Shown: one piece after another, positions 4,001-64,000 of the stretch
Numbering within the stretch: position 1 is the stretch's first letter
Layout: every line of letters starts with the position of its first letter
DNA from: Sclerodactyla briareus
Lineage: Eukaryota > Echinodermata > Holothuroidea > Dendrochirotida > Sclerodactylidae
Direction: 5' to 3'
DNA: 64,000 nt
Assembly (NCBI GenBank): GCA_026419785.1
Contig: JAODTK010002032.1
Coordinates: forward strand, 62,001 to 126,000
The notes under the pieces: model-generated
Databases searched by the model: none
Told to the model about the DNA's origin: nothing
What the model saw: only the letters and a program-made list of their open reading frames with translations
Position numbers and translations under genes: made by a program

Positions 4001-4123
4001 TGTTACAAGCCAGGCATCACACAGTCACATACACACATACAACCAAAGTCACACACACACATACAACCTGTGTGACCACATAGAATCTTCTGCATGACTG
4101 GTAAGGATTCCATAATGGTGCTG

Positions 4124-4369
4124 ACCGTCATTATTTATAGCAAAGCACTCAACAAAAGAGATCAACTATGCTCAGGCTTTGTTGAAAGTTGTGGGACCAG
4201 AAGCAAGTTGGGGGTTCAAAGCCACATTGGTACAATGTTTTGTGCACAAGGCTAAAAATGTGAATGTATGGGGGTCCGGATATAAAAGTTTAAGGGGTCG
4301 CAACCTTTACCCGGTCTTTGTGCCATTGATGCAAGCGAGCGGGGCTTTCGGAGAGTACGTAAAGAGGTG
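4124..4369 (+). CDS. Unidentified plus-strand ORF, possible terminal exon
   Basis: An open frame of about 80 codons ends at TGA 4,367-4,369. About 63% of codons start with a purine, and the peptide looks ordinary (AKNVNVWGSGYKS, FVPLMQASGAFGEYVKR). There is no good ATG context. A weak acceptor-like 'ctatgctcag' lies near 4,170. It could be a last coding exon or a remnant of an element. No family recognised. Confidence 0.25.
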
Positions 4370-6650: not shown

Positions 6651-6659
6651 AGGTAAGAT

Positions 6660-6675
6660 GGGGGGGGGGGGGGGG
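6660..6675. repeat. Poly-G run
   Basis: Sixteen consecutive G residues directly follow 'ctaggtaagat'. This is a mononucleotide microsatellite whose length is probably uncertain in the assembly. Confidence 0.8.
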
Positions 6676-6774
6676 AATGCGGCACACGCCTGCACCGCAT
6701 CTTTAGCCAACATACAAGCCAGATATGGTACATCCTGGTCCCAGTCAGGGGCTAACATCCTATCTGTTCTGCAG

Positions 6775-6870
6775 GAGTGGAAAAATGCTCAAACATTAGA
6801 ACAAAAAATAGCTGAAATTGGACCCCTAGATGACATACTTTGTACTCTAATTACTGATCAGCTGAGGATA
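6775..6870 (+). CDS. Candidate 96-nt coding exon
   Basis: A good acceptor (ctatctgttctgcag) opens a 32-codon frame including EWKNAQTLEQKIAEIGPLDD. About two thirds of codons start with a purine. The likely donor (ATA|gtacta) is weak, so the 3' border is uncertain. Phase 0 to 0. The peptide looks helical and charged; no family recognised. It could belong to the same plus-strand gene as the segments at 8.5-9.0 kb. Confidence 0.35.
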
Positions 6871-6889
6871 GTACTAACTATCATGTCCA

Positions 6890-8520: not shown

Positions 8521-8524
8521 TCAG

Positions 8525-8684
8525 AAGGATTTCCAAAGGTAATGATGGCACCATGAAGTACTTGATCCGTGGTAAACTTGAAGAGAACAAAACAAGATAT
8601 AGGCTGCTCACAATGGCTATCCATAACCTGGCAAAAACTCGTTTACCAGAAACATCAACACAAATGATAAGGTCTATCTTCTAA
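8525..8684 (+). CDS. Coding exon of an unidentified gene
   Basis: An acceptor (aactgttatttcag) precedes an open frame of 52 codons ending at TAA 8,682-8,684. Two thirds of codons begin with a purine. Peptide pieces: GNDGTMKYLIRGKLEENK and LLTMAIHNLAKTRLPETS. A donor-like ATAAG|gtctat at 8,671/8,672 precedes the stop. Another strong coding segment starts at 8,711, only about 40 bp later, in a different frame. Either a very short intron or an assembly indel separates them. No family recognised. Confidence 0.45.
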
Positions 8685-8710
8685 TGACAGTCCTCACTCA
8701 GTATATATAG

Positions 8711-9034
8711 CGGCAGCTAAATAGTTTGGAGGCAATCAAGTGGAACACTAAGCAGGCTATAGTACAGTACAGTCAAACAGGCTACTACGTGTACAGGAGA
8801 GATTACTTCATGAACGAGGGCGCGATAACACAAAACAATACCCCCAAAGTGCAGAAGGGACAGGCCAGGCCATCCAGGGCTAGAAATGAAGGGAAGTTGT
8901 CCATGAAGAGCAACGGCTTTGATGGCCTTCAGAATTCGAAAACTCTTACGGCATCCATGTTGCCTCAGATTTCTGCCCTGCCTGAAAACAAAACACACGC
9001 ACCGTCCTGTGACCCTGAGTATGGTACCTCTTAG
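8711..9034 (+). CDS. Terminal coding exon of an unidentified gene
   Basis: From CGG at 8,711, after 'tatatatag', a frame of about 107 codons runs to TAG at 9,034. About 62% of codons start with a purine. The first third looks structured (NTKQAIVQYSQTGYYVYRRD); the rest is Lys/Ser/Asn-rich and probably disordered, as at many C-termini. There is no ATG near the start, so I read it as the last exon of the gene that includes 8,525-8,671. Direct splicing between the two does not keep frame with any GT/AG pair I can find. Function unknown. Confidence 0.45.
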   Translation, partial: RQLNSLEAIKWNTKQAIVQYSQTGYYVYRRDYFMNEGAITQNNTPKVQKGQARPSRARNEGKLSMKSNGFDGLQNSKTLTASMLPQISALPENKTHAPSCDPEYGTS

Positions 9035-12000
9035 CTCTGCGACTCACACTGGGAAATAGTGAACCATGCAACTAGCAAAGGGCTTAGTGATACGGACTTA
9101 TCTGTAACCTATGTCCACAATAAGGCATCAGGGAAAATTGTACCAGCTCACTGGGGCCAGGTAACATACAACCAGGGATGTAGCTAGCCAAATTCTAGTG
9201 ACGGCTGAAAGGATTGAATGCGCGTGAGTGCTAGTTGCCATGACTGAGTGCTGGCTACACCAACCAAGCACCAACAAGCACCAACCAGCGTAGATACATC
9301 GGTACATCCCTGCATACAAGTTCCCCACAAATACATTTTCATACATGTTCTTCAGAATTTGCCCCGGGCATCAGAGATCCACTGACCTGACCACAAAAAC
9401 AAAGGATATGTGTAGTACGCTTCCCAGAAACTCACTACCAAGAATAAACTATATCCACCCAGACGGGGTCTGAGTTATCATGTTTACACAAAAATAAAGA
9501 CAGAAATACATAAATCCCACTAAGGGCGTGAATTACGGGGGGGGTGTCCAACACCCCCCCCCTGTGAAAATCAGAAGTCTGGCTCTATGGCGTCAAAAAG
9601 TCGGTCTCTGCTCGAGTTAGGTGAAAAATTAATGATTTTCGCCATGACCTAGTATTCTCTGTTCCCTTCGAAAAAAATAGGGGCTGGCGCACAAACTAAC
9701 CGTCGGAAAACCACGGAATTAGAATAGCGCCATCTTATTACATAAGTGGTGTTGGTCGGTGACACCACTTATTTCAGCCAGTGTGAAATTATATTTCACA
9801 AAAGGCTGTTTACGTAGCGTGGCCACTTTAGTTTTATATGTGAATAAATAAAATTTGGTCTTAATGTCAATAGGTACAAGCTGCAAATCTCGGGGAATGC
9901 TAGCGTGACACCGGTATGGACAGTTGTGGTTTTATGTTGTGACGGATAGACTAACTTAGTCCGTGTTTAAGGACGGTTAATATCTAAAAAGTCGGTGACA
10001 CAAGTGAAACTGACTTGACGCAGCAAATGAAGTTTTCCCGGTATTGAACGCGATCTTACCGACGTAGGACGAATCAAAACGTGAACGTAGCGGTTCAATC
10101 TGTGATAACAAACAAACAGACAAACGCCCTTGGTCACTAATACATCCAAAAATATGTGAAATAATAAAAAGTAGCATAGCTATCATCACACATGCAGTAG
10201 ATTACAGAACCCTTTCCTAAACTATGAAGCATCGTTATGTGAATCACAATAACCTACTATACTGCTTTAAATGCACAACAAACACAAGCCCATAATAAAT
10301 CATCAGGCATAATCACAAGTCTTGCAAACATAAAGAATGCCACTTCATGAATTACACCATAATAACCTATATGATGCTTTAATGTAAATATGACAGACAT
10401 GAGGTTTGACAGCCAGAACGCAAAACATTCTGAAAATCATAAGCATAGGCCACCGGCGTAACAAATAATTGCTCACTAAGACACAATACAATCTAATTAC
10501 TTCGATCAATGCAAACATAACAGGGACCCTCTCAAACGGGGGTCATATCTTACATCTAAATAAAACATTACAAATGGGGTCTCTCCCAAAATTTTGTAAA
10601 CCACAGAATTCGATGCTTGACGGCAGACGACGAAAATTTGCGACAAGGATGCCAGCGGTCGAATAATTCCGACAAAAATATTATAATAAACTAGATCTCT
10701 CAATTAACAATCCAGCATAGCGCCCCAATTATTAAATGACTCTGCCTCCAACAATGAATGTTTTGAGTTCCACAGACTGCAGTTTGTACAATTTGGGCAT
10801 ACGATGTGCACTCTGGAATTCCTGGTAGTGAGACAAGATAATAAAAAAAAATGAAATCGTTTTCACCTCCAATTGAATCATAATTACGACATATTCGTAC
10901 CACCTGTAAACTTCATTCAAAAAATCGATGTACAATACAGGGGCGGTGCCAGCGGGAGCAGGGCCCCCCCCCCACGTCGCGGGAGCCAGCGGAGAATCGT
11001 CGGGGAGAAAAGTAATAAAAATTAATAAAAATAGGGGCGTTGCGAACGTCTGAGGAGTGCAGGAAATTGATTTCAGCATAGGATGGACATGTGTGCCAAG
11101 TTTTCGCCCCATCGGACAATTATTAAATAGCGGTATCAGTATGGCTAATCAAGACCATGATGTGAATGCCAATTCTCCTAAGTCTTCCATGTACCCGTCC
11201 ATCATTATGTGAATTAGGTTCAAGCACTCTGAAAAACCACGTGTATAACTTCATACCAGCATACATCAATCTAGTAACAATATGATAACCCAATAGAGTG
11301 CACAGGTTATTCATGTAGTAGGTTACAGCCCGTTTTGACACACATTATCTTAACACACAGTTACTTAGTCGGTAAAAACTCTGTTGGCAGAAAAATGAAT
11401 ATTTTTTAATGGTATTCATGCTAGAATTCGTACTAGGATAGCACATTTTGCGTCTGAGGGTTTCAGGTTTTGCAAAAACTTTCCAAAGGGATGGTGGGCC
11501 CCTCCCTTAAACCCCTCCCCCAGATCAGTTAATCCAACACGATCACTAAGAAAACGAATTTGCCACTCAGATCCGGAGACCCAGAGCACCCTCCACGCGA
11601 GCCGCAATGGTGCCCCTCTGGTAAAATACCAAACAAGAAATCGGTCTCACCAAAATCTTTGTCGGTCCCTCCAAATGATTCAACAACCGCCCCCCTGGAA
11701 ATTTATGTATAGACGTCGCCCCTGATCCCACCCGGAGCCTCCAAAATCATGGAGGACATACGTAGAGTACCAAGTATGAGCTTCACTCCAGAAAGCCTCA
11801 GTCACGTTATTGTGTTTGTCCAACAAAAGTTTTCACCAAGAATTGCCCCCCCTTCCCCCATCTACATTGCACCCAGCATAGGGTTCTTGTATCTATCATC
11901 TCGTCCTATGATAATGCTCCACACAGAATTCCAACTTGTTATACATTTCCTCATGCGTCCTGCCCGCAGGTACATACCTACTCACGGGCCGTCCATTCAT

Positions 12001-33529: not shown

Positions 33530-34190
33530 GAGGAAAAATGCATCCAAGCAAATCTGCGTCGCGACAGACATGTGGCAAAAACGTCAGGGTTTAAGTATGC
33601 CATGTCATTCACTGTCGATTACTCAGGTTTGGTGTTTGATATCCCTCAATCCAAGAGTGACTCCATAACTGCCTTCAACCGAGGTCCGCTGACTGTTCCC
33701 TGATGGGGGGGCCTCGGGTTAGTGCCTCCGATTTGACAAGGCGGTGAAATCAACTGGCAAAGAATTCACGTCATTCCTGAGACAAAAAGGTATCGAACAA
33801 GAATTCTCATCTCCAGAATCACCTCATCAAATGGCAACCTCCGGAACGTACTGTACTGGCGCACCCTCTTTGAATGGTTGTGTCTCCTGTTGAAGGTCAA
33901 CTCCCTCCACAAGCACTTGTGGACCTACGCTGTGAAAACATCAGCGCACATTAGGAATCCGTGTTTCAACATAGGTAGGGAAAAACCCGTAAGAGCATCA
34001 CAGGAAATACACCGATGTGGGGAAATGGCATGTTTTAGGATCCCTAGGCTATGCTACACATACACCCGATGATGCAAATAAACTTGACTCAAAGAGCAAA
34101 CAAGGCGTATTTGTCGGGTATGACACTTACTCAAAGTCCCTACCCTGTGTCACTACCCTGATAACTGATAAAGTGCTGAAGTAAGGCTCA
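33530..34190 (+). pseudogene. Copia integrase, frameshifted
   Basis: The start of the core reads GFKYAMSFTVDYSGL, containing the first catalytic Asp (D-Y-S). After a shift comes GKEFTSFLRQKGIEQEF, the block with the catalytic Glu, then SPESPHQ. A further frame has HLWTYAVKTSAHIRN, and then LDSKSKQGVFVGYDTYSKS, the typical copia integrase C-terminal block. At least three frame changes occur. The block where the second Asp is expected (RSDNG) reads 'RFDKAVKSTGKEF', so that region is altered. Confidence 0.8.
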
Positions 34191-34196
34191 TTAAAG

Positions 34197-35030
34197 GACA
34201 ACTGCAGATGATTTATACAAGACTTGTTCAAAAGCTGGATAAAAACTGAATGCGCTAGTCCAAACCCGAGTTCTCGGACTTTCCGTTACGATTGTTTGTC
34301 TTTTTACGTTTGTGTACTGTGAAGCATGTGTATTGCAAAAGATCGAAATGATCCCTCATGCAATAATAATGATGTCATCAATTGCACAACCCTGCAAACA
34401 TTCTTCGTTTTCCATTGAAATTCAAACATTGATTTCACTTCGAAAAGCATTTAGTCTTGGGAGAGGATTGCTGTAGTGGGTTGGTAGGTGTTGATGGTTA
34501 CTTTGGTGAGGAAGCAACATAACCTTATTCAACAAAATGAATACATCAAAACCTAACATCATTTTCCTGTGTTGTCCATGTGGTTGACCCCGTTCATGCG
34601 TATTGTGCAAATGGGATTCTCCCCAAGTTCTCTCTTAATGGCCCAAACGTTGAAGGCCCATCACTCCCACTCCACGTAGGAACATCGTAGTGAAATGAGG
34701 TTTGGACCTATAGATAACCGTTTTCCATTCTCCACAATATGCCACCTCTGTTGAATCCAAGCCTGCGTTGTCCTTGCAAGACAATCTCTAAAAAACCAAT
34801 TAGCAATCAAGGAATGCAAACACCACAAGATCTTGTCAATGAAAGATGAAGTTCCTCATCGGGAACGGGCTGCGGCCCCAAGTATTAGTGACTCTGGTGG
34901 GGTATTGATGAAAGGTTAGAGGACGACTGTCAATCCTCAGCCACCAAACCTTGATGAAATAGGGGAATTGACAAAAACCAAATGACACTAGAAATTCAAA
35001 ATGAGACTGACCAGTCCAAAAGGTACCCTC
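34197..35030 (+). repeat. Copia linker segment, copy 1 of a duplicated sequence
   Basis: This about 0.8-kb segment lies between integrase and RT and is repeated, diverged, at 53,239-54,078 in the same orientation. Shared landmarks are 'gtgtattgtgaagcatg', 'attgaaattcaaacatt', 'tgtagtgggttgg', 'aaccaattagcaat' and, at the end, 'gaaattcaaaatgagact'. Here the sequence continues into RYPQRRRAPPK, the copia block just before RT, whereas the second copy stops there. Confidence 0.75.
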
Positions 35031-35089
35031 AGAGACGAAGGGCACCACCCAAATAAATATCTGGAGAACTGCAAAACTTGACTAGGAAA

Positions 35090-35890
35090 GTGATGATTCA
35101 TTGTGATAACGTCTCTACAACTTGCGTCGAGGCAATGGGCTCAGAAGCTCTGAAAACTGGAAGACTGCTCAAGGCATAAAGTCCTTCAAGGCCAGGTACG
35201 TGGCAAAAGAATACAGCCAGATGTGATAGAGGGGGTTGATTATTTTGAACATTCACTCCCACTGTGAACATGACTACTGTTCGTGCACTGACGCAAACTG
35301 CAGCGCAGCAAGACCTGATAGTGCATCAGATGGATGTCAGTTCTACCTACCTGAATGCTGATATTGATGCTGAAATTTTTGTGCGGCAGCCTGAAGGGTA
35401 TGAGGGACGTCTGAGGATGGTGAAGAACTTGTTTGGAAGTTGCAGAAGTCTCTCTATGGCCTTAAACAGTCAAACAGGAACTGGAATCAACATCTTCATG
35501 AACATTTAACAAGTTAGGGATTCCAAAGAAACCCTGCTGATCACTGCTTATATCACAGAGGTTGGGGATCAGATATCTATGTCTTAGTTTGGGTTGATGA
35601 TCTTGTCATTGCATACAGTAATGAAGCTCTCATGAGCGAGTTCAAAGACTGTATGAGAAATAAGTTTAAGATAAAGGAGCTTGATAGGACTTTCCTATTT
35701 TCCTGGGGCATTAACTTGGTGCAAGGAGAGGGAGAAATTTCAATGGACCAGAGCAAGTACATTGTGAAAATTTGGGATTGTAAACCTAGATCCACACCTT
35801 GTGAAGTGAAAGTTGGGATTCAAAGTGAGAAGGTCGACCCCAATAGGTACAGGGAAATTGTAGGTAGCTTGATATACCTAGCAACTTTTT
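35090..35890 (+). pseudogene. Copia reverse transcriptase, broken
   Basis: An open frame at 35,264-35,509 has LIVHQMDVSSTYLNADID, the copia RT block with the first catalytic Asp (MDV) and a QPEGY motif. After a shift, VWVDDLVIAYS at about 35,588 carries the catalytic Asp pair (usual YVDD with the Tyr replaced by Trp). The thumb region follows in the frame from 35,632 (FKIKELDRTFLFSWGINL). Upstream remnants (VAKEYSQ near 35,200) are also typical. Confidence 0.85.
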
Positions 35891-39621: not shown

Positions 39622-39779
39622 GTAAGTACGTCCGTACCAAATGAAATAATGACGGAATCTCACAGTAAATAATCTCTCAATTTTTTTCCTGCGACGAAGG
39701 AATCTATGCAGTCATGCCCGTGCGTCTGTTGTATGTGTGTGTATGTGACGCCCAGCTTGTAACAAGAAACTCTACCCCA

Positions 39780-40215
39780 CCTGGATGGATGAATCACAAT
39801 AAAAAAACAAACCCCCTTTGGTAGTTGTGTTTCCCATGATGAGTACTGACCCTATTATTTGGATCACGGCATAGTTCACCAGAAGTCAAGTCCTGAAAAC
39901 CTTGAAACACGACAAGTCAGAATGGTTTGGTTAGATCGAGTTGAAATTTGGTGTGTAGCTCCCTAATGGGGAGTACAGAACCCCATTGTTTTTGGTTCAG
40001 GTCGGGTGAATTTTGGTAAAAAATAGGAACTTTGGGGAAAAAGTCGATATTTCGGCAATTTTGGCTTGTAAACCATACCTTAGACCCCCCCTGGATGGAT
40101 GAAGCTCATACTTAGTTATGTGTGTTCCCCATGATGAGTACGTTAACCCTATTGTTATGGGGTCAAAATAGAGGTCACCAGAGTCAAAGTCGAAAATCTT
40201 GTGAAACATGATAGG
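39780..40215 (-). repeat. Dispersed repeat of the TGACCT family, two copies
   Basis: Two consecutive diverged copies, inverted relative to the 3.2-4.0 kb block, share 'cctggatggatga', 'ccccatgatgagtac' and a 'gaccctattattt' or 'aaccctattgttat' string. It ends where the LINE-like coding sequence at 40.22 kb begins. Confidence 0.55.
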
Positions 40216-42300
40216 TCCCAGAATAGTTAGATCCGATCCAGTTGAAATTTCCTGCTTCTGCTATCTCAGAAATTATTCTTATGGGAGAAACAATTCTATT
40301 CTCTACACTCTAAGATCAGGCTCTTCTTCATCACCAGCGTGGTTCGATCATCATGTACCACTGCTGTCAGGAGAAAAATTTGACTTGTTCAGCTTGTCTA
40401 TCTTCACCTTCACCTGATTCTTGTCAGGCCATGGAACTGCTCGTAATGTGTGCTCTGAGACAATCGATAAGGCAGAAAACTAGGCAGAACGACTACCTTC
40501 CGGTAGTCGTTCATGTTGGTCGCTGGCCAAATCTGGGTCCCCAGAATTTCTGGTGCTTCCAAATTCCCGCCTCTGTTGAACCCTGGTGGCTTCTTGGCCA
40601 TGATCCACCTCTAAAGCTAACACTTTTGCTGAACTATTCTCTTCCAATTCCACTGTGTATAAGATGCCTTCAATCCTCCCCATTTTTGCCAGCTTTATGA
40701 AACGATCTCTGGTAAACGTTGTTTTTAACTAACTCGTCATGATCCGCAAACACTCGATAATTTAGACAGTAAGAAGTCATCTAGTCTGATGGCTATTCCT
40801 CCTATAGTCATCCTGAAGTGGCCCCTGAAATATTTTCCCCCATCCTTAGCAAGCTTACCCTCTTGTTTTATGGGATGCTACCCTTCTGTTTGGAAACATG
40901 CCTCATTTTTGCCCATCCCTAAGAAAGGATGACCATCCGACCCCTCCACTTTACATGCCGATTGCCATCACCTCGGTTCTCTCTAAGTTTGGAACCTATA
41001 GTCAACAGCATTTTGAACTTTCTTTATTTTCACTCTCTCATCAGTGTCCACCAGTGGTGGTTTCCGGCATGGCCGTATTTACTGTACTGGTGACCTATCT
41101 TTTGTCACCACTCAGTGAGCCCAAGCCATTGAGTTTTTCAGTGAAAGTGGGCATTGCCCTTGATTCTCGAATGCCTTTGACCGTGTATGGCCATGCGGAC
41201 TCCTTACCAATTACTTCAGTTGGTTTCAGCCCCCTTCCAACTTCTTGGACCACCCTTTGACCAGCCTTTCTTACCCGGTCGCGCTATCTCTGTTCTGGTT
41301 ATGGTGACTATCTCCAAACACTTCCTATCAATGCTGTTGTTCCTCAAGGTGTGTTTTTTCTCCTACACTCTTTCTCATTTTTATCAACGATCGTCTTAGC
41401 TCTACTTCCTATAGTATTCACTCTTTGCGGATGATTCTACCCTTCACCACACTCTGTGCTTTTCTCGTCCCCAGAAGCAGAATAATTTTGTCTATAACTG
41501 TTCCATAGTTGCCAGTCAGAACAATGACTACATTTCTATTTTGAAGCTGGGGCACTGCTAATCTAGTTACATTCCACCAATCTAAAACTTAAAATTGCCG
41601 ATTCCTGTCGGCGTTTTTCTGATGCCCCGCTATTTTCATGGCTGAAAAGATCCTCCCTCAGTCTACTAGCTTAATCTCCTTGGTAGGAAAATCACAGCAC
41701 CTGTCCTGGCACTCTCATATCGGGTCTATCGCTACTACTGGCTCTAGAAGTTGGGCTTCCTATTTTGTGCAAGGAAATACTTCACCTCACAACAGCTAAT
41801 TATGCTTTACAAAGCCCAAATTCGCTGCCTAATGGAATATGGTTGCCATATTGGGGTGTAGCTTCGCCATCCTCTCTCAGTGTCCTTGATCGTATTCAGA
41901 GCAAGGCCATTCGTCTCATCAAGTGATCATCTTAATTCCTCACTTCAGCCTCGATCCCATCACAGATATGTATCATCCTCCGTCTCCTCTTACCACTACT
42001 TTTATGGTCAATGTTCTTTCTGAGCTTGGAGATGCTGTTTCATCCTTTTACTCCAGGGTACTTGCCATTACTCGCTCTTCTTCTTCCAGCAACCCATTTT
42101 GGTCGCAGCTCCCACGTCATTGTCACCGAAACCTATGCTCGCTCCTTTTTTCCTCCACACTGCGCAAGCTGCACTAGGCTTTCTCGCGGATGTCTTACAC
42201 TGCTTTCGATCTACAGCGTCTTTCTTTTGTGTCTTGTGTGGGGGTTGCCCTATTTTGTCTAGGCAATTATGGGTTCGCCATGATGAGTACTAGATGAGGA
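40216..42300 (+). mobile_element. Non-LTR retrotransposon, Jockey-like
   Basis: A possible endonuclease remnant near 40.3 kb (GSSSSPAWFDHH) is followed by a recognisable RT and C-terminal region on the plus strand. The order and blocks (PSVWKHASFLPIPKKG, VPQG, FADDSTLH, 'CLMEYG', 'RIQSKAIRLI') are those of Jockey-group elements common in arthropods and other invertebrates. Frameshifts occur throughout. A tail-like AT-rich stretch with 'gcgctatataaaat' at about 43,140 may mark the 3' end if the UTR is long. Confidence 0.75.
40590..41960 (+). pseudogene. Jockey-like reverse transcriptase, frameshifted
   Basis: ANTFAELFSSNST near 40,620 is the pre-RT block. PIPKKG at about 40,917 leads into IAITSVLSK near 40,960. 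The VPQG turn is at 41,338-41,349, and the catalytic FADD at 41,424-41,435 is intact. The frame changes at least four times, so no functional protein is possible despite preserved active-site residues. Confidence 0.75.
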
Positions 42301-46659: not shown

Positions 46660-48150
46660 TATTAAAATCTGCAGACTTATACATGGAATAGGCAAGATTC
46701 TATGTGCTATGGTCAGCAGCGGCAGACCTTGTATATGGAAGAAAGCAATGAGTCTATGGTATGGTCAGTGCATTGCAGACCTATATATGAAATGAGGCAA
46801 TGAGTCTATGGTATGGTCAGCATGCTGCAGGCCACATACATGAAATAAGGCAATGACATTCTATTGCATGGTCAGCATCTGCGACCTATACATGGAATAA
46901 ATCATGAGTCACAAACTGTGGCAATTTTCAGCATGCTGCGGCCTCTACATGGAAGAAGCAATTAGTCCTATGCTATGGTCAGCATGCTGCAGGCCCCATA
47001 CATGGAATAAGGCAATGAGTCTAATGGCATGTTCACATGCTGCAGGCCTCATACATGAATAAGGCAATGAGTCCATGGCATGGTCAGCATGCTGCGCATG
47101 CCTCAGACCTGGAATAAGGCCAACAATCAATGACATGTTCATCATGCTGCATGCCTCATAGAGCATGTGAAGTAAACGCAATGGTAGGTCTATGGCATTT
47201 CAGCATGCTGCAGGCCTCATCCATGGAATAAGGCAATGAGTCCATGGCATGGTCAGCATGCTGGCAGACCTCCTACATGAATAATGCAAGGAGTCTAGGC
47301 ATGTTCAGCATGCTGCGACCTCATACTTTAAATCAATGCAATGAGTCGGGGGTATAGCAGCATACTGCAGGCCTGATTTATTGAATAACACAATGAGTCT
47401 ATGGTATGGTCAGCATGCTGCAGGCCACATACATGGAATAAGGCAATTAGTCTATGGTATGGTCCATTGCCTGCAAACCTTATGAATATGGAATGAGTCA
47501 TAGCATTGTTCAGCCATGCAGCAGGCCTAGACATAAATGAGGCAATAAGTCTATGGCATGTTCACATCTGCAAGCCACATACATGAATAAGGCAATGAGT
47601 CGATGGCATGTCGCATACTGCCAGCCCTCAATACATGGAATAAAGCAATGAGCTATGAATGTTCAGCATGCAGGCAGGCCTCATACCATTGAATAAGGCA
47701 ATGAGTATATGATGTTCAGCATGCTGCAGGCCCCATACATGGAATAAGGCAATGAGTCTATGCCATGTTCAGGAATGCTGCAGGCCTCATACATGGAATA
47801 CGGCAATGAGTCTATGGAATGGTCAGCATGCTGCCAGACCGCGTACATGGAATAAGGCAGTGAGTCTTGACATTGGTCAGCTGCTGCAGACTCCATACAT
47901 GGAATAAGGCAGTGAGGTCTATTGCATGGTCAGCACACTTCAGACCTCATACATGGAGTAAGGCAGTGAGTCTATGGCATGGTCAGCACCCTTCAGACCC
48001 ATACATGGATCAGGCAATGAGGTCATGAGGTCAGGCATGCGCAGGCTCATACATGGGATTAAGGCAATGAGTTATGGCATGGCTCGCATGACTGCAGACC
48101 TCATTACATGAGTAGGCAGTGAGTCTATGGCATGGTCAGCACAATCAGAT
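46660..48150. repeat. 53-bp satellite array
   Basis: About 28 head-to-tail copies of a roughly 53-bp unit. Consensus pieces, in order: 'catacatggaataaggcaa', 'tgagtctatggcatggt', 'cagcatgctgcaggcct'. The unit includes the 10-bp palindrome CAGCATGCTG. Copies differ by substitutions and many 1-2 bp indels. Minus-strand open frames inside it (periodic 'DSLPYSMY' peptides) are by-products of the repeat. Confidence 0.9.
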
Positions 48151-53238: not shown

Positions 53239-54078
53239 ACAACTGCAGGATGATTAAAAAACAGGTGCTAATTTATAGCTGGATCAAAACGAATGCGTCA
53301 GTCTAAAAAACCGGAAGTTCTAGACTTCCGTTACAGAGTTATGTCATTCAAAGTTTGTGTATTGTGAAGCATGAGTATTTCGCAAGATCGAATGCATCCC
53401 ATCATGCAAAGATAATCAATGTCATACTTGCACAACCCTGGTCAACATTCTTTGGTTTTGCTATTGAAATTCAAACATTAATTTTCACTTCGAACGCATT
53501 TATCTAAGGAGAGGATTGTTGTAGTGGGTTGGGTAGGTGTTGATGGTTACTAATTTAGTGTGAGAAAGTCAACAGAACTACTGCTAAATGATGACTTACT
53601 CAACAAAATGAAACACTTAAATACAATAACATAATTCCTTCCTTTTTGTCGCATGTTTGAGGTCACTGTGGTTACTGCGCAATTGGGATCCTCCCCCAAT
53701 TCTCTGCTCAATGGCCAAAACTGAAGGCCAATTAATAACTCCCATAGGAACAGCGTATTGAAATGGGGTTGGACCTTAAATACAGTTTCCATTCTCCACA
53801 AATACACTTCTGTTGTATCCAACCTGCAGTTGTCCTTCAAGACAGACAATCTCTAAAACCAATTAGCAATAAGGATGCAAACACCACATATCTTTTGCAA
53901 TGAAAGATGAAGTTTCCTCATCAGGACATTCTGTCGGCCCCAAGTATTAGTGACTCTGGTGGGGTATGATAAGGTAGGGACGACTGATCAATCCTCCTAC
54001 CAACCTTGAATGAATCAGGGGAATTGACAAAACCGCAAAATTGACCTAGAAATTCAAAATGAGACTGACCAGAAATAT
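53239..54078 (+). repeat. Second copy of the copia linker segment
   Basis: A diverged duplicate of 34,197-35,030 in the same orientation, with common landmarks along its whole length and an abrupt end after 'gaaattcaaaatgagactgaccag'. No integrase or RT coding was recognised on either side. It is either a solo fragment of the same copia family or a separate element that also sits inside the copia linker. Confidence 0.7.
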
Positions 54079-54478
54079 TATCAAGTAGCCGTGTGTATCG
54101 ATCTAGGCCTAGCCTAGTCCTAATTAGTGTGGCTAATGAATTTGTAACTGCTTTTGGTTGTTGTTGTTATAAAAGTACTGTAGCTAACGTTCAAGCTGTC
54201 GATTATTTATGCTTATTCGGCTATGATAAAAATGCAAGAGACTGTAACAGAACCAGAAGCTTACTGTGGATGAACAGCTATGAATGGAACTCAGTGGCTT
54301 CACAGGAGGGCCCACTGTCGATCTGTCCGCAGATTCCAGGATTTCCTAGGGGAAACATTGCTCTAAATGCACCTCACCACCTAGAAGTAGGACCCTAGCT
54401 CAATGACATCCACTCTAGTTTACACTCTAATTCTGTCACTCATTTCCTCATTTCCTTTGCCCCTCTTATCTAACGATT

Positions 54479-54680
54479 GGGTAGCAATTCACAGTGGCCG
54501 TCTTTGTGGTGGAGTACCTCCACCTCACATAAAAGCCGCCACAGAGGGCCATTGCCTTATATTTCCGTTTACCTGGTGAGGATCGCAGCTTGACACCAGG
54601 TGCACCAGGTCTGCATCCTTGCTGGCCTAGAAGGTTTTGACCTCTGCTTGGCAAGTATAAGCCCCAATGAAAAAAAAAAA
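54479..54680 (+). mobile_element. tRNA-derived SINE, copy 3, 5' truncated
   Basis: It lacks the tRNA head but keeps the body in order: 'gggtagcaattcacagtgg', 'aaaagccgccacagagggcc', 'ggatcgcagcttgacacc', 'ccaggtctgcatccttgctgg'. It ends with an A-rich tail (54,668-54,680). 5' truncation with an A tail suggests LINE-driven insertion. Confidence 0.7.
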
Positions 54681-55736
54681 TGTGTAGACGAGTTCAATAG
54701 CTTCCCCACCTTTTGGGGACCTGGGAGACCACATACCCCCCATTTGGTAATGCCACTGAATGAGGGGGGGTTGATAACATGGCTCAACTTCTGAGTAGAG
54801 TGTGCACAAGTTGAAGTAAGAACTTGGCGCGTGGTTTGGCTGTCTTCCTGACACCTTGAAGGACCTGATATGGCCTACATGGGACAGTGGTGGGGATTGA
54901 ATTCTTCACAAAGATGATGACCTTGCCCTCCTCCATTCAGCAGTCCTCCCCATCACTATGAGGCCTCTACTGTCTCTAGGCTCCTCAGAATATTCTTCAC
55001 CAGAAGTTTAACAGGGCAGAAGCTAACCGCAGTGCTGGCATGGGGGCATAGGGATCTGTCCTAACAATTCCCCTCCCCAAAAAATAATTCATAGAGTGAC
55101 AATCCCTCCCGAACTTCTAGAACTTTTTATTGTGACTAATGAGGGTCCCTCGATCTCTCATTTCAATTATAACCCTCACAAAATAATTCACAAAGATGGG
55201 CATTTTTTTTGTTTCCCCCCTCCCAGATTTGAAAGGATACCCGGTCAATTACCCTGGTCATAAGGACATGATTTGACCTATTTGACTTTGATATCTACTG
55301 TGATAATTAATATTCTAAGCATCTACAGACCACTCATCTTTGGACAGAAGATGCCGATGACTCTGGTCCCCAGTGAAATGATGTAGCTATATATGAAAGA
55401 ACTCCATGCTAGACCTGAATGTGTCAATAGTCTATAACATCTAGAGAGCACTCATTATCAAGGCTAATTGAGGAGTGCAGGGCTAAAGGCTGGGAAATGC
55501 AAAGTAAACTTTTTCTACAGTCAGGTCCACTCTAAGTCTACTACCGAAAATAAGAAAATACAAATAAAAAATACTGACACAGTGAACTTATTATCCTGGA
55601 TATTGAGTTCTTTCAGAATTACATTTCAAAGAGAGGAGAAAAACAAGGAAAAATATTGAAAAAAAAAAAAAATCCTCAACTTTCTACAGAATAATCGCAC
55701 TTCGTGATTTATCTACTGGTACATCTCTCTTCCCAG
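54681..55736. other. Non-coding interval
   Basis: A good acceptor-like 'aaactttttctacag' at about 55,520 is not followed by a clear exon. Otherwise nothing recognised. Confidence 0.35.
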
Positions 55737-55784
55737 GTTTACTTTGATGAGGATAATGATATCACTTCTAAGAATTGTGCAGGG
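55737..55784 (+). CDS. Exon 1 of three phase-linked exons, unidentified gene
   Basis: A 48-nt exon between an excellent acceptor (gtacatctctcttcccag) and a good donor (GCAGGG|gtgaga). Phase 0 to 0, reading VYFDEDNDITSKNCAG, with 12 of 16 codons starting with a purine. The next exon (56,894) also starts in phase 0. The peptide is acidic; family not recognised. Confidence 0.6.
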
Positions 55785-56893
55785 GTGAGATGAACTGATG
55801 TTGGATGCTATTGGAAAAAAAAACATGGTGTGAGAGTAGGAGACTGGGGAAGCCCTATCTGTTTGCAAATTACTTATAACCAACTTAGACTTGCTACATT
55901 TTGAAAGTATGGTTGAAGACTCCCCCCCCCACCACTCACACACATCTGCAGAGAACACGAAAGAGAGAAACCCCTAAAATAGTCTAAAAAAGGAAACGTG
56001 TTCGAAGAGTCGGGCTACTTTGTTGTAGTAGTGCGAAGGGTGAGGTCCAAATCCCCAATCCCCGCCTTACTTGTGGCTGCCCCTGCCCACACTTTCATGA
56101 GGCTGGCGACGCCCTGACACTTTCCGCCCAAGTAAGGGGCGACAAGAACACCGACATTGCAGTGCGTGTTAATGATTGGTAAGGCCTATTAACATTTACT
56201 TAGCCCTATACCCTATCGGTATATGCTATTCGATGGCTCAACAAATCACCGAATTTAAGTACAAATGAGGTAACTACGTGATCAGACGTATTATCCTTTT
56301 TCTCCCTCCATCCTCGGAATTTCATTAAAATGCCCAATCTTGTTTTTCCGAAGTGGTTGCAATCAGGGATGAAACACTGCCCCATACTGGTTTCGAGAGC
56401 GCGTAGCTGTTGCAACATCAATACTAGTAGTTAGTTTAGTAGGAATAAGGGTCAGGAAGGACTATCCTCAAAACGCCCCGAAGCCACAACACCCCTGGAA
56501 AGAAAACTGAACCAACACTCGAACTTAAATAATACGCCCTTGATTCCTGAAAAATAAACAAGCGGTTCTTGAACGCATTCATACTACGGGTGCTATTGCG
56601 CGAATTTGTTTAGAGCCCACCGGCTACTCGTCATGGCCCCCACTGACGTCACCATTCGAGTATCTTAGAAGAGTCCACAGAAAAGAACCAGGCACGTGAT
56701 TAAAATTATGATGCTATGGTAAAACGGTTATTTGTCCTGAGAGGAGAAGGATGGAGGTACAATTAACTAACGAGGTAAATGAGTTTGTTCCTTTATACTA
56801 TTCTGCGAATTTGTCAGTTTCTATTGGAACTCAGTTGTAAATTGATGTTTTACTTCTAAGGCCAGCTTCCTTGGAGATTTGCTCACCTAACAG

Positions 56894-57021
56894 AAGAGCT
56901 CCTTGACACTGGAGCAGGTCCCGAGCATCCTCCTGAATCATCTGCCCAACTGTGACCACTACGTCCACTACTGCGCAACACCAGACCACCCAGATATCAC
57001 TGGTACATTGATTAAAATCAA
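56894..57021 (+). CDS. Exon 2, whose 3' end is the source of a tandem array
   Basis: The acceptor 'tgctcacctaacag' opens 128 nt, phase 0 to 2, reading SSLTLEQVPSILLNHLPNCD, then HYVHYCATPDHPDITGTLIK, up to the donor ATCAA|gtgagt. The last 70 bp of this exon plus donor and early intron are repeated about ten times directly downstream. Phases match the exon before (0) and after (2). Cys/His residues are frequent in the middle, but no known zinc-binding spacing is evident. Confidence 0.55.
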
Positions 57022-57846
57022 GTGAGTAACTTACTTCGACCCCATGTTCACTTCTGTGCCAACAACAGCACCAGATCTCACTGTACATGATACACTCAAG
57101 TGGTTACACTCTACTTGACCACTCCGTCCATGACTGTGTCAAAAAACCAGCACAAGATATCAAGGCTAATTGATGACTCAAGTGAGTACACCTTTTGTTT
57201 ACTTTGACCGCTACCGGGGGGTTTTTTCCCATTACTGTGTCAACCAGCACAGATATCACTGTACATGAGAACTCAAGTGAGTACATACTTTGACCACTAC
57301 GTCCCATTACGTGTCACACAACCAGCAACCAGATATCAATGTACATTGATAAACTCAGTGAGTACCACTACTTTGACCACTACATCCACTACTATATCAT
57401 CAACCAGCACAAGATATCACTGTCCATATGACTCAAGGAAGTACCACTTACTTCGACCAACTACGTCCACTACGTGCCAAAAACCGCACCAGATATCACG
57501 TACATTGATAAACTCAAGTGAGTCCCTTACTTGACTACTCCATCACTTACTGCACCAACAACAGATCCAGATATCCACTACTACTTTGACTGATAATTCC
57601 ATACGTGCCAACACCAGACAAGATATCACTTGTACAGTGATAAACTAAAGTGAGTACACTTACTTGATGACTCAGGTCCATCTGCACCAACAACCAGCAC
57701 AGGATATCACTGTACATGATGAAGTCAAGTGAGTACACAGAATATCAATGTACATTGATAAACCAAGTGAGTACACTACTTGGACCACACGTCCACTATG
57801 TGGCAACACCAGCGCCAGATATCACTGTACATGGATAATTCAAGTA
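56950..57846. repeat. Exon-derived minisatellite, unit about 85-90 bp
   Basis: About ten head-to-tail units, each with 'gaccactacgtccactac', 'ccagatatcactgtacat' and 'ctcaagtgagtac'. The first unit coincides with the 3' end and splice donor of the exon at 56,894-57,021, so the array is an amplified exon-intron boundary. At least seven units keep a GTGAGT donor sequence. Indels of 1-5 bp are common between units. Confidence 0.8.
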
Positions 57847-57959
57847 ATATTGAACTGCACATGTTCCTGTGCTATGTATGTGTATGTGTTATTCCTTCAT
57901 CGATCCTTTCTCTCTGTTCAAAATGATCACAAACTGCTGTTCCTATTACATCCTTCAAG

Positions 57960-58028
57960 AGAGCGTGAGATACTTGATATATTGGGTGTTCATCGAGAGA
58001 GGTTAAAAAAATTGGTTCAAAGGTTCAG
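57960..58028 (+). CDS. Exon 3 of three phase-linked exons
   Basis: The acceptor 'gttcctattacatccttcaag' opens 69 nt, phase 2 to 2, reading EREILDILGVHRERLKKLVQ, to the donor TTCAG|gtaaat. It joins exon 2 in frame (AA|A gives Lys). The peptide is a charged amphipathic helix. The next exon at 58,544 does not fit in phase, so an exon in between is missing from this annotation. Confidence 0.55.
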
Positions 58029-58543
58029 GTAAATAGGTAAATTTGATTAAGACTTGTGTCATGTTTTTTAATATGAGGATTTGATTTAGCAAAACCACGA
58101 ACCTGAACAGAAAGATTCTAATAGAGGGGAAAAGTGTACACATGTAATACAGAGATGGATCGAATTGCTTCTTAATCACAAATTAGCAATTGCGGCCACT
58201 TTGATTTGCTGGGGAGAAGGGGATGGGCCCAGACAATTCTGAAGTACCAGTTTCAAAGTCAGGTCATGAAGGAGGTGGGCAGCTGGAAAGTACGGCATTG
58301 CATTGTGGAGTTATAGAAACTGAGCGAATGGAGGGTTAACTTGCTTAGATAGTCAGGCCCATGCCGTGCCAATCAGCCCGGGCACATCTTGGAGAAGGTC
58401 AACAGTGATGGGCTCTGGAGAAGTACAAGGCGCCTTCACCCAAGCATGTTTTCACATTCTTCAATTTTTGACATACGTAGTTCCGGCCATGCCTTCTTTG
58501 TCAAGTTAATAGTTGCTCTCGTTATCACTGTACTTGTGTTCAG

Positions 58544-58663
58544 ATAGGCTCTACCATGGAGGTGATCCCGAGTGGAGAGACACCCAGACTGTCAGCACCT
58601 GGACCTCATGTCATTTCCTCATGCTACATTCCAGAGAAATGGAGGACTGCCTCTCCTCTAAAG
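58544..58663 (+). CDS. Exon, possibly first coding exon with strong Kozak
   Basis: The acceptor 'tacttgtgttcag' and donor (CTAAAG|gtgaat) bound 120 nt, phase 0 to 0. It reads TMEVIPSGETPRLSAPGPHV and continues VISSCYIPEKWRTASPLK. The internal ATG at 58,556 sits in ACCATGG, an ideal Kozak context, so a second gene or transcript could start here. A shifted frame (acceptor 4 nt downstream) is also open but has fewer purine-first codons. Unidentified. Confidence 0.5.
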
Positions 58664-58931
58664 GTGAATATTCATATCTTATTTCAACTAGAAGGCGTGC
58701 AATTATATAGTGAGGGGGGGGAGGTAAGCTTCAAAAATAATCTCAAAAAATGTTATTCGTATCCTCTGTCTTTAATACCTATGGTACTTTTTTCATTTCA
58801 ACCCACATGGTCGAATCGGCTGTGTGTGATTTCCCCAAATCCGGATGCATGCTAAGAGATTTTGCTCTGTAAAAATCCGCTGCATCTGTGAAAGTGGCAT
58901 TATTTTGCGACTAATTTCCTCTGACTACAAG

Positions 58932-59003
58932 TCTGGCGGTGAGTTTGCTCTGCCCAAGGGCAGTTCAGTGATTGGGGACATGACATACCGCCGCATGAAC
59001 AGT
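58932..59003 (+). CDS. Exon, 72 nt
   Basis: The acceptor 'ctaatttcctctgactacaag' and donor (AACAGT|gtgaga) bound 72 nt, phase 0 to 0. Only one frame is open, reading SGGEFALPKGSSVIGDMTYR plus four residues. It follows the exon at 58,544-58,663 in phase. Family not recognised. Confidence 0.55.
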
Positions 59004-60430
59004 GTGAGACTCTTGTTAATCATCTCCCATGAAAATTGGGGGTATCAGTCAACAGTGTCATTTTATGCTTTTGCAAGGCCCAAATATTTCATATGGGGCA
59101 GGAGGCGATTGCTTAGCTCGGTATGATGACAGTTGAGAACAGGGCTAAATTCATTCGAATAAACTAAACACACAAAACTGGTATGGCTCTTAAAAGTTCG
59201 CTTACTCAAACTATAGTTTTTACTGAAACGTCCTGCAGTCCATTAATAGTGCACCCCGTGCGAGAGTTATATTCCAAGTTCTGTGAAAAAAGGGGTGCAT
59301 GGTGCCACCTTTGTGCCACTGCTGTAGGTGATGACCGCTCTCTTGATGGCATCAGATCTATTCAATCTATTCATACTTAAACTAAAACTGAGGAACTTCA
59401 TCATCTAATGTTCATTGCCTTCTCTCCAGCGACCTGGAGTCTGATGAAAGTTGCTGGGGTGATGGTTATGGTGGGTGAGAGGCGGTGAGTTTTTGTTATT
59501 TTTGTATGTTTCGTGTCTTCTGATTGTTGCAATCATTATGGGGGCCCCCATGGAAATGGGCCATTGTTGGCTCAATGGGTGTTACTCCTGTGACTCTATT
59601 GTTAAATCTGGCTTTTGTTCTTGTTGTTACATATTTATTGGTCAGTAGTATCACTTGGTGTTTGACGTATTGAGCACAAATAACGAAACAAACAAACAAG
59701 ATACAGAGAGAAAGCTTTTGTATAAGCCTAGTATGTGCATTGTAAATTTTCGGGCCGCCTCATAGACCCTGGATTCTCTGCAACTCCCCGCTTCAACTTA
59801 GGGGTAGTGAGGTTACAGTGAGCTCTTAATCCTGCTCTAAGAGTCTGCAGTGTGGTGTCGTTCTTGACCTTGTATTCACCAGATTGGCAATCTTATCTTA
59901 AGTGCCCGTCCGTGCCATGCCGCATTTTTCACATTGGGCGCTCCCCAGTGCTGCCCATTTCGAACTACAAACCACCCCTAGGAGTCTTTGAATGTTGTAA
60001 CTATTTCAGCGAAGAAGCTGCATCCTCCAAAAATTGGGGAGTACACAATAAAATTTGTGCACAATTAGGTTTTTTCCTATCATAGCACTTTGATAGGGTA
60101 TCCTCATCTATCTACCTCTGCAGAGACAGGGCTGTTTTTCTCTCCCGAAAACAGTTGGGTTGCGTTCAACTTTTTCATGTGAACTTCACTCAAATGTCAA
60201 ACCCTGTCAGTTACATACGTTAAAAAATTCTGTTGATGAGTTTTGAAACTGGGGTGGCCATCATAGGGGAGTGTAACAACAACTGCAAATCATTAATTTG
60301 CTCTCGAAAACTGCTATGTTAACTATAATCGCCTTAAGGTAGGGATGAACACGCTGTGGAAAAATAATGACAGGTCTTAGGCCTCCTCTTTTCCATCTGG
60401 CACAAAACAAAATACTGCCGAATGGCACAG
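59004..60430. other. Intron with weak exon candidates
   Basis: A possible exon at about 59,431-59,472 (after 'ccttctctccag', reading DLESDESCWGDGYG, donor TATG|gtgggt) and coding-like frames at 59,240-59,380 and 59,870-60,080 are noted, but none has both good borders and a compatible phase. Confidence 0.3.
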
Positions 60431-60795
60431 TTATAACAGAGTGGTTGGCACAGTGATAGAGCGTGGCCTTCCACTCGGGAGACCCGGTTTGATTCTCAGT
60501 GGGGTCATTACCACGACTCTAAAAATTGTAAACCGTTGTTGCCTTCTTGCTAGACGCTCAGCACAAAGGATGGGAGCAGGGACAACCGACGGGTAGGCAA
60601 TTTGCCATGTTGCCGTCGTGTGTGATTTTCCACACCCCCACACTAAGGTACCGCCAAAGAGGCATTGACTTAATCTGTGTATCTGTGGAGAGATTCGCAG
60701 CTGGCAAACAGGGGCAGTACCAGGTCGATCCTTGCTGGGCATTGAATAGGTTCGATTCCCTGCTCGGCTGCATACATGAAAAAATAACGCCGTGC
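60431..60795 (+). mobile_element. tRNA-derived SINE, copy 4, nearly complete
   Basis: The head has an A-box-like TTGGCACAGTGATAGAGC and a B box CCGGTTTGATTCTC (60,484-60,495 region). Its anticodon arm (GCCTTCCACTCGGGAGACCC) closely resembles tRNA-Gly. The body has 'gttgccttcttgct', 'gggagcagggacaacc', 'ggtaggcaatttgcc', 'aggtaccgccaaagaggca' and 'gcagtaccaggtcgatcc'. It ends near 'catgaaaaaataac'. This is the best copy for defining the family. Confidence 0.8.
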
Positions 60796-60940
60796 GGAGG
60801 TGTATATGATGTTGAATAGAGGCGCCTATCAGACCTCATACTATTGTCTCCATCAGAGCGTGGTCAGTTCTAGTGTAACAGCCCTTTTGAATAGTGCATT
60901 AGATATCATTTGATTGACGGTGTCTAATTTTTCTATACAG

Positions 60941-61007
60941 GCTGTTCTAGACCATTCGCAGTCAGAGGTTGACGATAATGCCAAAGAAGCTGTCGAGCTT
61001 TTACGAG
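60941..61007 (+). CDS. Exon, 67 nt
   Basis: The acceptor 'gtctaatttttctatacag' and donor (TTACGAG|gtgggt) bound 67 nt. Phase 0 to 1, reading LDHSQSEVDDNAKEAVELLR, with many acidic residues and an amphipathic helix pattern. Its phase-0 entry fits the exit of the exon at 58,932-59,003. Family not recognised. Confidence 0.5.
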
Positions 61008-61149
61008 GTGGGTGGGTGCATGGAGAATAAAATCTCATTTATTTACCCTCCAGTCCACCCACGGCTGTCGGGATCAGTTCAGTCGGTGGTTAGTGGGATG
61101 GGAACATAGTGTCATAACCAACTTTTATGAACGATATAGACACTCACCA

Positions 61150-62130
61150 TTCTCATGCCAAGTTCAACAGGGATTAGAAAACAACATCCTGTGAACCCAA
61201 TGGCTATGTAATGTCAAAAGATTAGTAAGAATCTAGACTGCAAGCTCAGCAAAGATGTTGTTTCACTGATTTTAGTGAGCCTTTGACAGGTTCCAAGCAA
61301 CTGGCTCATAAGTTTCAACATTACGGCATCTGTGGTCAAATTCTCACTTGGAAAAATTCATTTTTGAACCATCGTACCCAGCATTTCATAAATGGGGTGT
61401 GAAGTAGCTCTGGAAGTGTCTATCAGGGGTCCACAACGGTACGTATAGGTTCCATTGCGTTCCTCTATACAATTCAATGATCTTCCAACTGTTATAGCAT
61501 CCACTATCAGAATGTTTGCTGATGACTGCATAATCTACCGGACTATCAATGGAGTCAAATGACGTAACATGCTGCAGCAAGATCTGGATAATTTTTCGCA
61601 ATGGGAGTAAGCTGGCAGATCAATCTGATGCATCAAAATGCAAGGCAATGGTTGTCACCAAAAGAGGCAAGTTGTACCATTCCAATATGTAATTGACGAT
61701 ACTCGCCTTGTACTGGTGAAAGACCATCCCTATCTTGGAGTAACCATTACTTCAAAGCTCTCATGGACAACTCATATAACATATAGTTGGTTAAAGCTTA
61801 CAAGATCCTCCATCTGATCAGTAGACATCTGTATGACTGTGAGACTAAAGGGACGATGAAGACATGCCTATAAGTCTCTGGTGTCCCTGTTTGGAATATA
61901 GCTCCTCAGGTTTGGGATCCAGACAAAGCGTTGTAACATTAAAGAAGCTGGAAATGGTTCAGCGCAAAGCGGCCAGATTTGTTCCTAGGATCACCACCGG
62001 TCAAACCAGTGTCGCAGGCTCCTGCAACTTCTTGCCTGGCCATTTTGCAGGAGGGAAGGGCAATGTACGACCTCAAAGCTGTTACAGACTAAACTACGCA
62101 CAAGATCATCATAAGTGAATGACTTAACTA
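61150..62130 (+). mobile_element. Non-LTR retrotransposon RT fragment
   Basis: RT blocks in order on plus: a 'FxxGLxxNNIL'-like HGFR region near 61,165, the 'FSxAFD' block near 61,272, a damaged VPQG turn near 61,430, an intact catalytic FADD at 61,515-61,526 (FADDCIIYRT), then KDHPYLGVTIT-like residues near 61,720 and EMVQRKAARFVPR near 61,950. The style is that of CR1/L2-like LINEs. It is 5' truncated and frameshifted. A 5-bp repeat (acaag, about 62,359-62,380) downstream may be near its 3' end. Confidence 0.75.
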
Positions 62131-62384
62131 TAGGGGGGGACAGTTATTGTTAATACCAAAGTTTTCAGGTGGTCAGTTTGGCCAAGAACAATTCTAGATC
62201 GGAATGCATCTAGCCCACTATGTAGGCATTAGGGTCATGGGGTGTGTTCTGGTGATGGTGTGAATTATTATCATCATCTTCAACTCTTAACTCTTCAATT
62301 AGCGTGTGCCTGTTGTGCTGTCCTATGCAGTGATAACCACGAGTGGGGTTTGCATAGGACAAGACAAGACAAGACAAGATTAGG

Positions 62385-64000
62385 GCCTTTAGTGTTTTAT
62401 GTGGATCACAGCTTAAAGTATGCCTCACACTGTGCAAGGTTCGGGGTGAGCAATGCTTGCAGACACTTGCAGTTGGACAAGCCACACAAACTGGCAATCG
62501 TTGAGAATGCTGAGTGATTGAGCAAGCGGTGACCGCCCTACTAATCCATGTGCAGGCCGAAAAATAATAAGCCGGTAGCCCGGGGCTACTTGAGACTGCT
62601 TCGGGATGTAGGAAGTTGGTTGGAGATGCCCTTCGGGCGAGTGGTAACTCAATGAAATTGTGTTGAGTATATGCATCGGGCTAAGTCAGTATCGTGTTCG
62701 GGTCTATGATAGCATTTTCTCAGAGGCGATGGGCGAGTTGAGGTAGGGTCCATTTTTCGAGCCTCCATGATGCACACTTGAGGTAGTAACAGCAGTTAAA
62801 AATGGCCGGAATGTGTTCCATAAAACTAAAAAAAAGATAAACATTGAGGAAAGCAAAAAGGATTCTACTTTTCTCACTATTCCTCAACTCTCCTCTGGGT
62901 ACGATAGTATATTTGTCAATCACATATTATATTGAGTCTTGGGGAAGTCTAACATTATCGAACTGGTTCTAAAACTGTTGAGAATTATTGTGTCAAGAGC
63001 GGAGTCTGACTGCAATGTGCTGTCGCAGTAGCTCTGGTCAATTTGGCTTTGTTAACCACAGAATTTCCCACCTATGAAGTGCATTCATACCAAAGCTGTG
63101 CCAGAGCAATTTTAAAAATGTTGACGATAGAACTTGCCCTTAAATCTTTTAGAGACAACTATTAGTACTTGTTAGCACAAAAATCAATAAAATAGCATAG
63201 TGAATATAAAGAATATTTCCACTTCACTTTTGCTAAAATGTCATATTATGCTGACCCACTCTGAAATTAGTTCTAAAAGGGCAAGTCAGACGAAAATATT
63301 TAAATGTCATAGGATTGTGCATGGGCGGCGATCAAGGGGAAATGGGGGGACATGTCCCCCAAATAGGTTGGTGGGGGGGAAATAATATCAAAATTTATCC
63401 CCCCAATATTTTGCGAACTGTGTGAAAAAATCTATAATCATTGTACAGTATGTCCATTAACACAAAAAGTCGAACTCATATTTCTTAGTAGAGTGCTTAA
63501 ATTTATGTGGCCAAAATGCAAAAAAATCGCGTTGATCCAACGTGTATCTTACAGTGTAGGTATATAGGTATATGGCACGAGGAGGGGAATTTGGTTCAGG
63601 ACTTGATGCATGTTGCACCACCTTCTTCCCCACTCAACAATGCCGGAATCCAACGCCATTTCGAACACGCACTCAGTTTAGTCTACTTCTGATACTTACT
63701 GTCAAGATTGCTTTGCCAGCCTGATGGGCTGTTTCTAATAAAGATGAAAGCTATATGAACGAAAAACAAACAGGGAAGGGGATCGTGCACATATATGGAG
63801 GTTTCGTGAGTGGCGTATGGAAATATACAGGCGCAGAGCGGGGCGAAACAATCTGAGACAGGAGAAATTGGGACGAAAATTTGAGCGGAAACAAACTGAA
63901 AAATGACAATGTCTGTGACTGGTCAATCCTTGTAATCAAAGGCCAAAAAATGCACACATTTTCTCATGAACAGTGATGTTCAAGCAAATTTTCATCTGCG
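62385..64000. other. Gene-poor end of the window
   Basis: It contains a G-run/C-run nested hairpin at 63,339-63,407 ('gggggacatgtcccccaa', then 'gggggggaaataatatc' facing 'atttatcccccc'). No exon was accepted on either strand. Confidence 0.4.

Follow-up and report, generated by a model that had tools for sequence, protein, structure and literature searches.

A minisatellite repeating an apparent exon–intron boundary beside a putative RhoGEF-like exon, and its unequal counterpart in an inverted duplicate block

Tandem repeats spanning exon–intron boundaries were named ‘mirages’ in the amphioxus Adh3 gene and were also found in the globin genes BflGb6 and BflGb9 (PMC3087553), and the work on PGBD5 added PGBD5 and troponin C to the amphioxus examples (PMC3902484). 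Mirages reportedly do not seem to disturb regular splicing (PMC3087553, PMC3902484), a role as cryptic sites is considered possible, splice signals are present in many, not all, of the globin repeats, and the repeat number of a globin mirage differs between two haplotypes (PMC3087553). Such boundary arrays have been proposed as a source of, and raw material for, new introns (PMC3087553). In human duplicated genes, variable internal tandem repeats at exon–intron boundaries were described within segmental duplications (PMC2812944), and intron gain by tandem genomic duplication has been reported as well (PMC4974935, PMC3443670). Here, we analyzed a minisatellite in a window of 64,000 nucleotides of contig C1926 (positions are those of the window unless given as contig coordinates), in which the end of an apparent RhoGEF-like exon, a GTGAGT donor and the start of the following intron are repeated.

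With a probability of roughly 0.6, this locus represents a mirage-type minisatellite beside a RhoGEF-like exon, which would be spliced from the first donor while the array would be removed with the intron. The following features carry the argument:

56,866–57,021 (+): apparent exon of 156 nt, predicted, RhoGEF/DH-like; the alternative acceptor at 56,893 gives a start at 56,894
56,954–57,849 (+): tandem array of 12 head-to-tail copies of a consensus unit of about 82 bp, delimited by wraparound alignment and Tandem Repeats Finder (TRF)
57,018–57,039 (+): predicted RNA hairpin over the first donor, CAAGUGAGU being paired with UUACUUCG just downstream (−5.0 kcal/mol, mean accessibility 0.16)
57,022–57,027 (+): first donor, CAA/GTGAGT, presumed to be the authentic 5′ splice site; contains the in-frame TGA at 57,023–57,025
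57,182–57,772 (+): seven further GTGAGT donor-like sites, at 57,182, 57,277, 57,358, 57,518, 57,650, 57,729 and 57,767
57,783–57,849 (+): last copy, with GTAATA at the donor position (GTAAGT in its counterpart in the duplicate array)
57,960–58,028 (+): proposed next exon of 69 nt, whose phase agrees with that of the first donor; followed by GTAAAT

The array is real. Nine of its copies have at least 66 nt and three are shorter or out of register; TRF divides it into several rows with a top score of 398. When 56,894–57,960 was shuffled 500 times with dinucleotides preserved, no array with a period of at least 30 was obtained. The first-pass annotation of this DNA, which had described the exon end, GTGAGT and intron start as repeated about ten times in a row and had pointed to TRF for unit size and copy number, was confirmed in this respect. 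Each unit begins with an exon-like part of about 65 bp, the last letters of which are CAA, and continues with the GTGAGT donor position and about 11 bp of intron. GTGAGT is intact in 8 of the 12 copies, or in 7 of 12 under an alternative cutting that places two of the sites in the same copy. Donor-like sites that are strong, i.e., score at least 8 on a position weight matrix for donors, occur on the plus strand at 8.45 per kb inside the array as compared to 0.79 per kb in the remaining window. The first unit, which the annotation had required to stand closer to coding sequence than the others, was found to be continuous with the upstream open frame. An apparent exon–intron boundary is indeed what the array copies, its first unit continuing an upstream open frame with a weak RhoGEF match, and the initial interpretation as a whole is partly supported.

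On the array sequence features tested, the locus fits the mirage type, a kind already in print. As in the amphioxus mirages, the unit appears to hold an exon end (of a predicted exon in our case), a splice site and an intron start, the splice signal is present in many, not all, copies of the present arrays, and the unit size is of the same order (10–72, 60, 108 and 150–160 bp in amphioxus and 82 bp here). Copy number likewise differs between related loci, here 12 and 17 copies between duplicate blocks and hence non-allelic. In contrast to the BflGb6 mirage, with 81–100% identity, the copies here show a mean identity of about 0.86 (gaps ignored; copies W8 and W11 omitted and W10, out of register, dropped from the means) and are nearer to the ‘imperfect’ PGBD5 repeats. 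Moreover, unlike the amphioxus cases, the present array also occurs in an inverted duplicate block. The human boundary repeats are similar in that minisatellite units lie at exon boundaries and vary in copy number between duplicated genes, but those altering the structure of a gene have, on average, units of 30 bp in 4 copies, and many have transcript support (PMC2812944). In intron gain by tandem duplication the duplicated segment also carries a splice signal, whereas here an existing donor was multiplied and no new intron is evident (PMC4974935, PMC3443670). The initial description of arrays copying a splice boundary as uncommon has therefore to be qualified, since the phenomenon bears a name in amphioxus and is also reported from human gene families (PMC3087553, PMC3902484, PMC2812944). 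If the host is not amphioxus, it is wider than the name ‘mirage’ suggests. As to a cephalochordate host, genome searches gave no match to GFP, arthropod cuticle protein (Chitin_bind_4) or mir-2 at E 0.01 or better (for mir-2, 60 of 59,014 candidates were scored) and none to COX1 at E 0.001; these negatives carry little weight. Repetition of a 5′ splice site also offers a natural test of the choice of the spliceosome among near-equal donors.

In the searched assembly (319 Mb, 3,171 contigs) at least two loci contain the unit; the two located lie on C1926, one in the window and the other, inverted, at C1926:18,000–19,386. The second array has 17 copies, its unit consensus differs from that of the window at 3 of 82 positions, and 7 GTGAGT donors and 1 GTAAGT donor were counted among its copies. 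Both arrays lie in an inverted duplicated block of 31–38 kb, one arm of which extends from window position 42,605 to C1926:135.9 kb (window 42.6–73.9 kb counting past its end) and the other over C1926:45,445–7,545. The arms share 67–85% identity in aligned pieces with many indels, and reverse matching of the sequence between them detected scattered repeats but nothing colinear. A foldback artefact is not favored as the origin of the block, the arms being diverged and interrupted and the intervening sequence lacking a colinear match. Because copy W2 of the window and copy P8 of the duplicate have the variants CATGTTCAC and AGATCTCAC in common, the array probably held differentiated copies before the block was duplicated. 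The final copies of both arrays read GTAA where most intact copies read GTGA, and both lead into alignable intron. It was also considered that the first copy is the best kept between the arrays. This proved to depend on the alignment: projection on the consensus gave 0.95, near the top, and in the pairwise comparison of copies (W8, W10 and W11, each below 66 nt, omitted) the first copy ranked 3 of 153 pairs by overall identity and 12 of 153 by substitutions. With two related arrays of unequal length on one contig, array length and splicing could be compared inside a single genome; this pair and the predicted masking of the first donor described below are points that may interest specialists.

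The exon had been annotated at 56,894–57,021. Its end at the first donor was retained; its start, as judged from sequence, is probably 56,866 instead, because the CAG at 56,863–56,865 has a counterpart in almost the same position of the duplicate locus, where the acceptor at 56,893 is missing. The CAG of the duplicate locus sits one base further from a shared TTCCTTG, which would put the exons of the two loci out of phase by one base. Pfam comparisons of the exon pointed weakly, and depending on the letters used, to the RhoGEF family (PF00621): the unit consensus joined to the next exon scored 15.2 bits (E 0.026), and 16.8 bits (E 0.0081) when extended to 56,867 with the window letters and an X at the stop; a composite based on the duplicate locus, without the next exon, reached 18.0 bits (E 0.0036); and the best composite, in which the stop was replaced by serine and one residue by the phenylalanine of the duplicate locus, reached 20.0 bits (E 8e-4) and covered a fragment of the domain, namely profile positions 59–110 of 180. 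Among the five frames compared, the match was limited to the predicted one, none of the four others giving it. None of five shuffled peptides matched RhoGEF and one shuffle matched another family (E 0.075); the exon peptides themselves also matched the unrelated families HTH_23 and SNF2, more weakly (E 0.03–0.1). The top matches of the exon in the PDB were RhoGEF proteins, at insignificant values (NET1, E 0.37; ARHGEF16, E 0.76). A whole-genome RhoGEF search, which is weak on short exons, returned no match at E 0.001; the six matches that it did give had E values of at least 0.006 and lay away from the array locus.

As regards the partner exon, which had been placed at 57,960, use of the first donor would join the apparent exon to 57,960–58,028 in frame. 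All seven downstream GTGAGT donors, on the other hand, would retain the same in-frame TGA located within the first donor, and their products are therefore predicted to be truncated or sent to nonsense-mediated decay (NMD). The suggestion that alternative donors would yield length-variable transcripts does not extend to the protein: with seven of seven downstream donors reading the stop, length-variable protein isoforms were rejected as the default outcome. Decoy binding of U1 by the array donors, also suggested at the outset, may occur. We propose that the array may have been founded when the terminal ~65 bp of the RhoGEF-like exon were duplicated in tandem together with ~17 bp of intron, and that slippage or unequal exchange would then have led to 12 copies in the window and 17 in the inverted duplicate block. 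The spliceosome would most likely define the exon by an upstream acceptor, at 56,865 or 56,893, and by the first donor at 57,022, the whole array would be removed together with the intron, and any use of a downstream donor would keep the TGA at 57,023 in frame and expose the transcript to NMD. It is the expression of the exon, the use of the first donor and the route of array growth that we infer in this scheme, the array, its unit and donors, the stop and the second array being directly observed.

The array unit bears donor-like motifs on both strands, GTGAGT and, in reverse, GTAAGT (e.g., at 57,018–57,039), and a hairpin over the donor is therefore predicted. In the self-complementary part of the unit, CAAGUGAGU is predicted to pair with the following ACUUACUU, and the array RNA folded more strongly than 20 of 20 shuffles (z −5.0). 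In 30-nt contexts, masking is predicted for the first donors of both arrays, with energies of −5.0 and −8.2 kcal/mol and mean accessibilities of 0.16 and 0.13. Of the 169 further strong donors on both strands of 136 kb, 2 likewise reach an energy of at most −5 kcal/mol and an accessibility of at most 0.2. Since the hairpin was noticed post hoc and the two first donors are homologous, it serves as a lead and not as a test. The internal donors at 57,518 and, in the duplicate array, at 18,502 and 18,246 are also predicted to be masked, and the donor at 57,729 is predicted to be open (accessibility 0.72). The hairpin may equally explain why the unit is prone to expansion. A donor-masking hairpin in the unit, kept at the first donors of both arrays and lost from some internal copies that would thereby be open decoys, could in principle form a length-dependent splicing brake, in which more open decoys would give more transcripts ending at the TGA at 57,023; we see a slight chance of this.

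Several observations weigh against a functional, spliced exon at this locus. Use of the acceptor at 56,865 puts an in-frame TAA at 56,888–56,890 in the window copy, and the acceptor AG of the proposed next exon is absent from the duplicate locus. The first copy as assembled has no RhoGEF match in Pfam, the exon consensus starting at 56,897 matched no Pfam family when the next exon was left off, and the best composite stays below the curated RhoGEF cut-off of 27.6 bits. Pfam scans of the window took in the plus strand from 25.5 kb and the minus strand at 1–10,000 and 54,001–64,000; on the plus strand from 25.5 to 64 kb and in the 10 kb beyond the window they revealed no other RhoGEF or PH exon. 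Between the two loci, 6 of 29 exon codons differ, 5 of them nonsynonymously (in hand-picked ungapped blocks), and the substitution identity of the exon (0.84) is lower than that of the upstream intron (0.89), with values of 0.85 for the post-array intron and 0.86 for the proposed next exon. The order of exon and upstream intron flips when gaps are counted (0.81 and 0.77, with 0.78 for the post-array intron and 0.73 for the next exon). As the comparison of the two loci gave no clear sign of purifying selection on the exon, a decayed exon is a serious rival, namely that the array is a common type of non-coding minisatellite, located in sequence that has decayed or never coded, built on a chance donor-like motif or a dead RhoGEF fragment and not involved in splicing. 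We consider this explanation rather unlikely on balance. It would account for the lack of a clear excess of exon over intron conservation, for the predominance of nonsynonymous changes, and for the TAA in the window copy and the frame breaks in the duplicate copy; furthermore, the same block contains another minisatellite, of 53 bp (46,679–48,141), whose consensus lacks GTRAGT. The missing RhoGEF and PH neighbors, which are also in its favor, are weak evidence because the genome-wide RhoGEF model finds exons only at E values of 0.006 and above and omits the exon at the array locus. Broken frames say little either, since an actin exon of the same assembly (contig C1260) also changes frame: three consecutive Pfam actin matches lie in three frames, which amounts to two frame changes, with a third seen by eye upstream, all in about 510 bp. 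Moreover, at the present locus an acceptor, an open frame, a donor and the RhoGEF match coincide in a single frame, which counts against this explanation.

The frame changes in actin, together with a copia reverse transcriptase split across two frames at 35.2–35.8 kb, also bear on the quality of the assembly: should the actin and copia genes be live, the assembly would have to be regarded as unpolished, and then the TAA at 56,888–56,890, the frame breaks of the duplicate exon and some of the array indels may be errors. It would be a further step to assume that the copy number and much of the divergence are artefacts of an unpolished long-read assembly and that the true array is shorter or more uniform, which we regard as very improbable. 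The excess of indel positions over substitutions in the window array (150 vs. 70) would fit such an artefact, but the three short copies account for 76 of its 114 deleted positions, and indels do not exceed substitutions in the duplicate array (107 vs. 126); besides, two separate arrays of the same unit exist on one contig, and the variants common to W2 and P8 are as expected of real old copies. The possibility that the array works as a set of decoy or poison donors, the copies competing for U1 so that part of the transcripts would keep the stop at 57,023 and array length would tune expression, is improbable as well. The roughly ten-fold density of strong donors, the identical early stop read from every downstream GTGAGT donor, and the combination of a first donor in a predicted hairpin with at least one open internal donor (57,729) are in line with it. 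Contrarily, the donor hexamer shows no consistent advantage in conservation over the remainder of the unit: 3 of 77 other unit hexamers were kept more often in the window array and 47 of 77 in the duplicate array, and because it ranks high in one array and low in the other, no consistent selection on the internal donors can be claimed and their maintenance by selection is unsupported over both arrays. In addition, the internal donors at 57,518, 18,502 and 18,246 are predicted to be masked like the first donor, and the published mirages reportedly do not disturb splicing (PMC3087553, PMC3902484). Returning to the favored reading of a mirage-type minisatellite removed with its intron, the array is most likely splicing-neutral, and the adjoining exon has possibly decayed.

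The exon-like parts of the copies were also considered as a target of selection, and none was seen, column conservation in exon-like and intronic parts being 0.81 and 0.77 in the window array and 0.87 and 0.90 in the duplicate array. The Pfam scan of the minus strand at 1–10,000 and 54,001–64,000 gave no match, and scans of the window with Rfam (at the gathering threshold) and for tRNAs detected none. A remnant of a copia-type element lies at approximately 34,000–35,800, where one frame gives an SH3-like match and the RVT_2 matches are split over the other two. Within the inverted block, the 53-bp minisatellite comprises about 28 copies in the window and about 61 at C1926:38,272–41,493, and is hence a second array with an approximately two-fold difference in length between the blocks. 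Finally, an element of about 450 bp at 39,755–40,250 is matched by a tandem array (310 bp, 6 copies) at C1926:15,217–17,049 and has further copies at C1926:20.6–21.0 and 36.6–38.2 kb.
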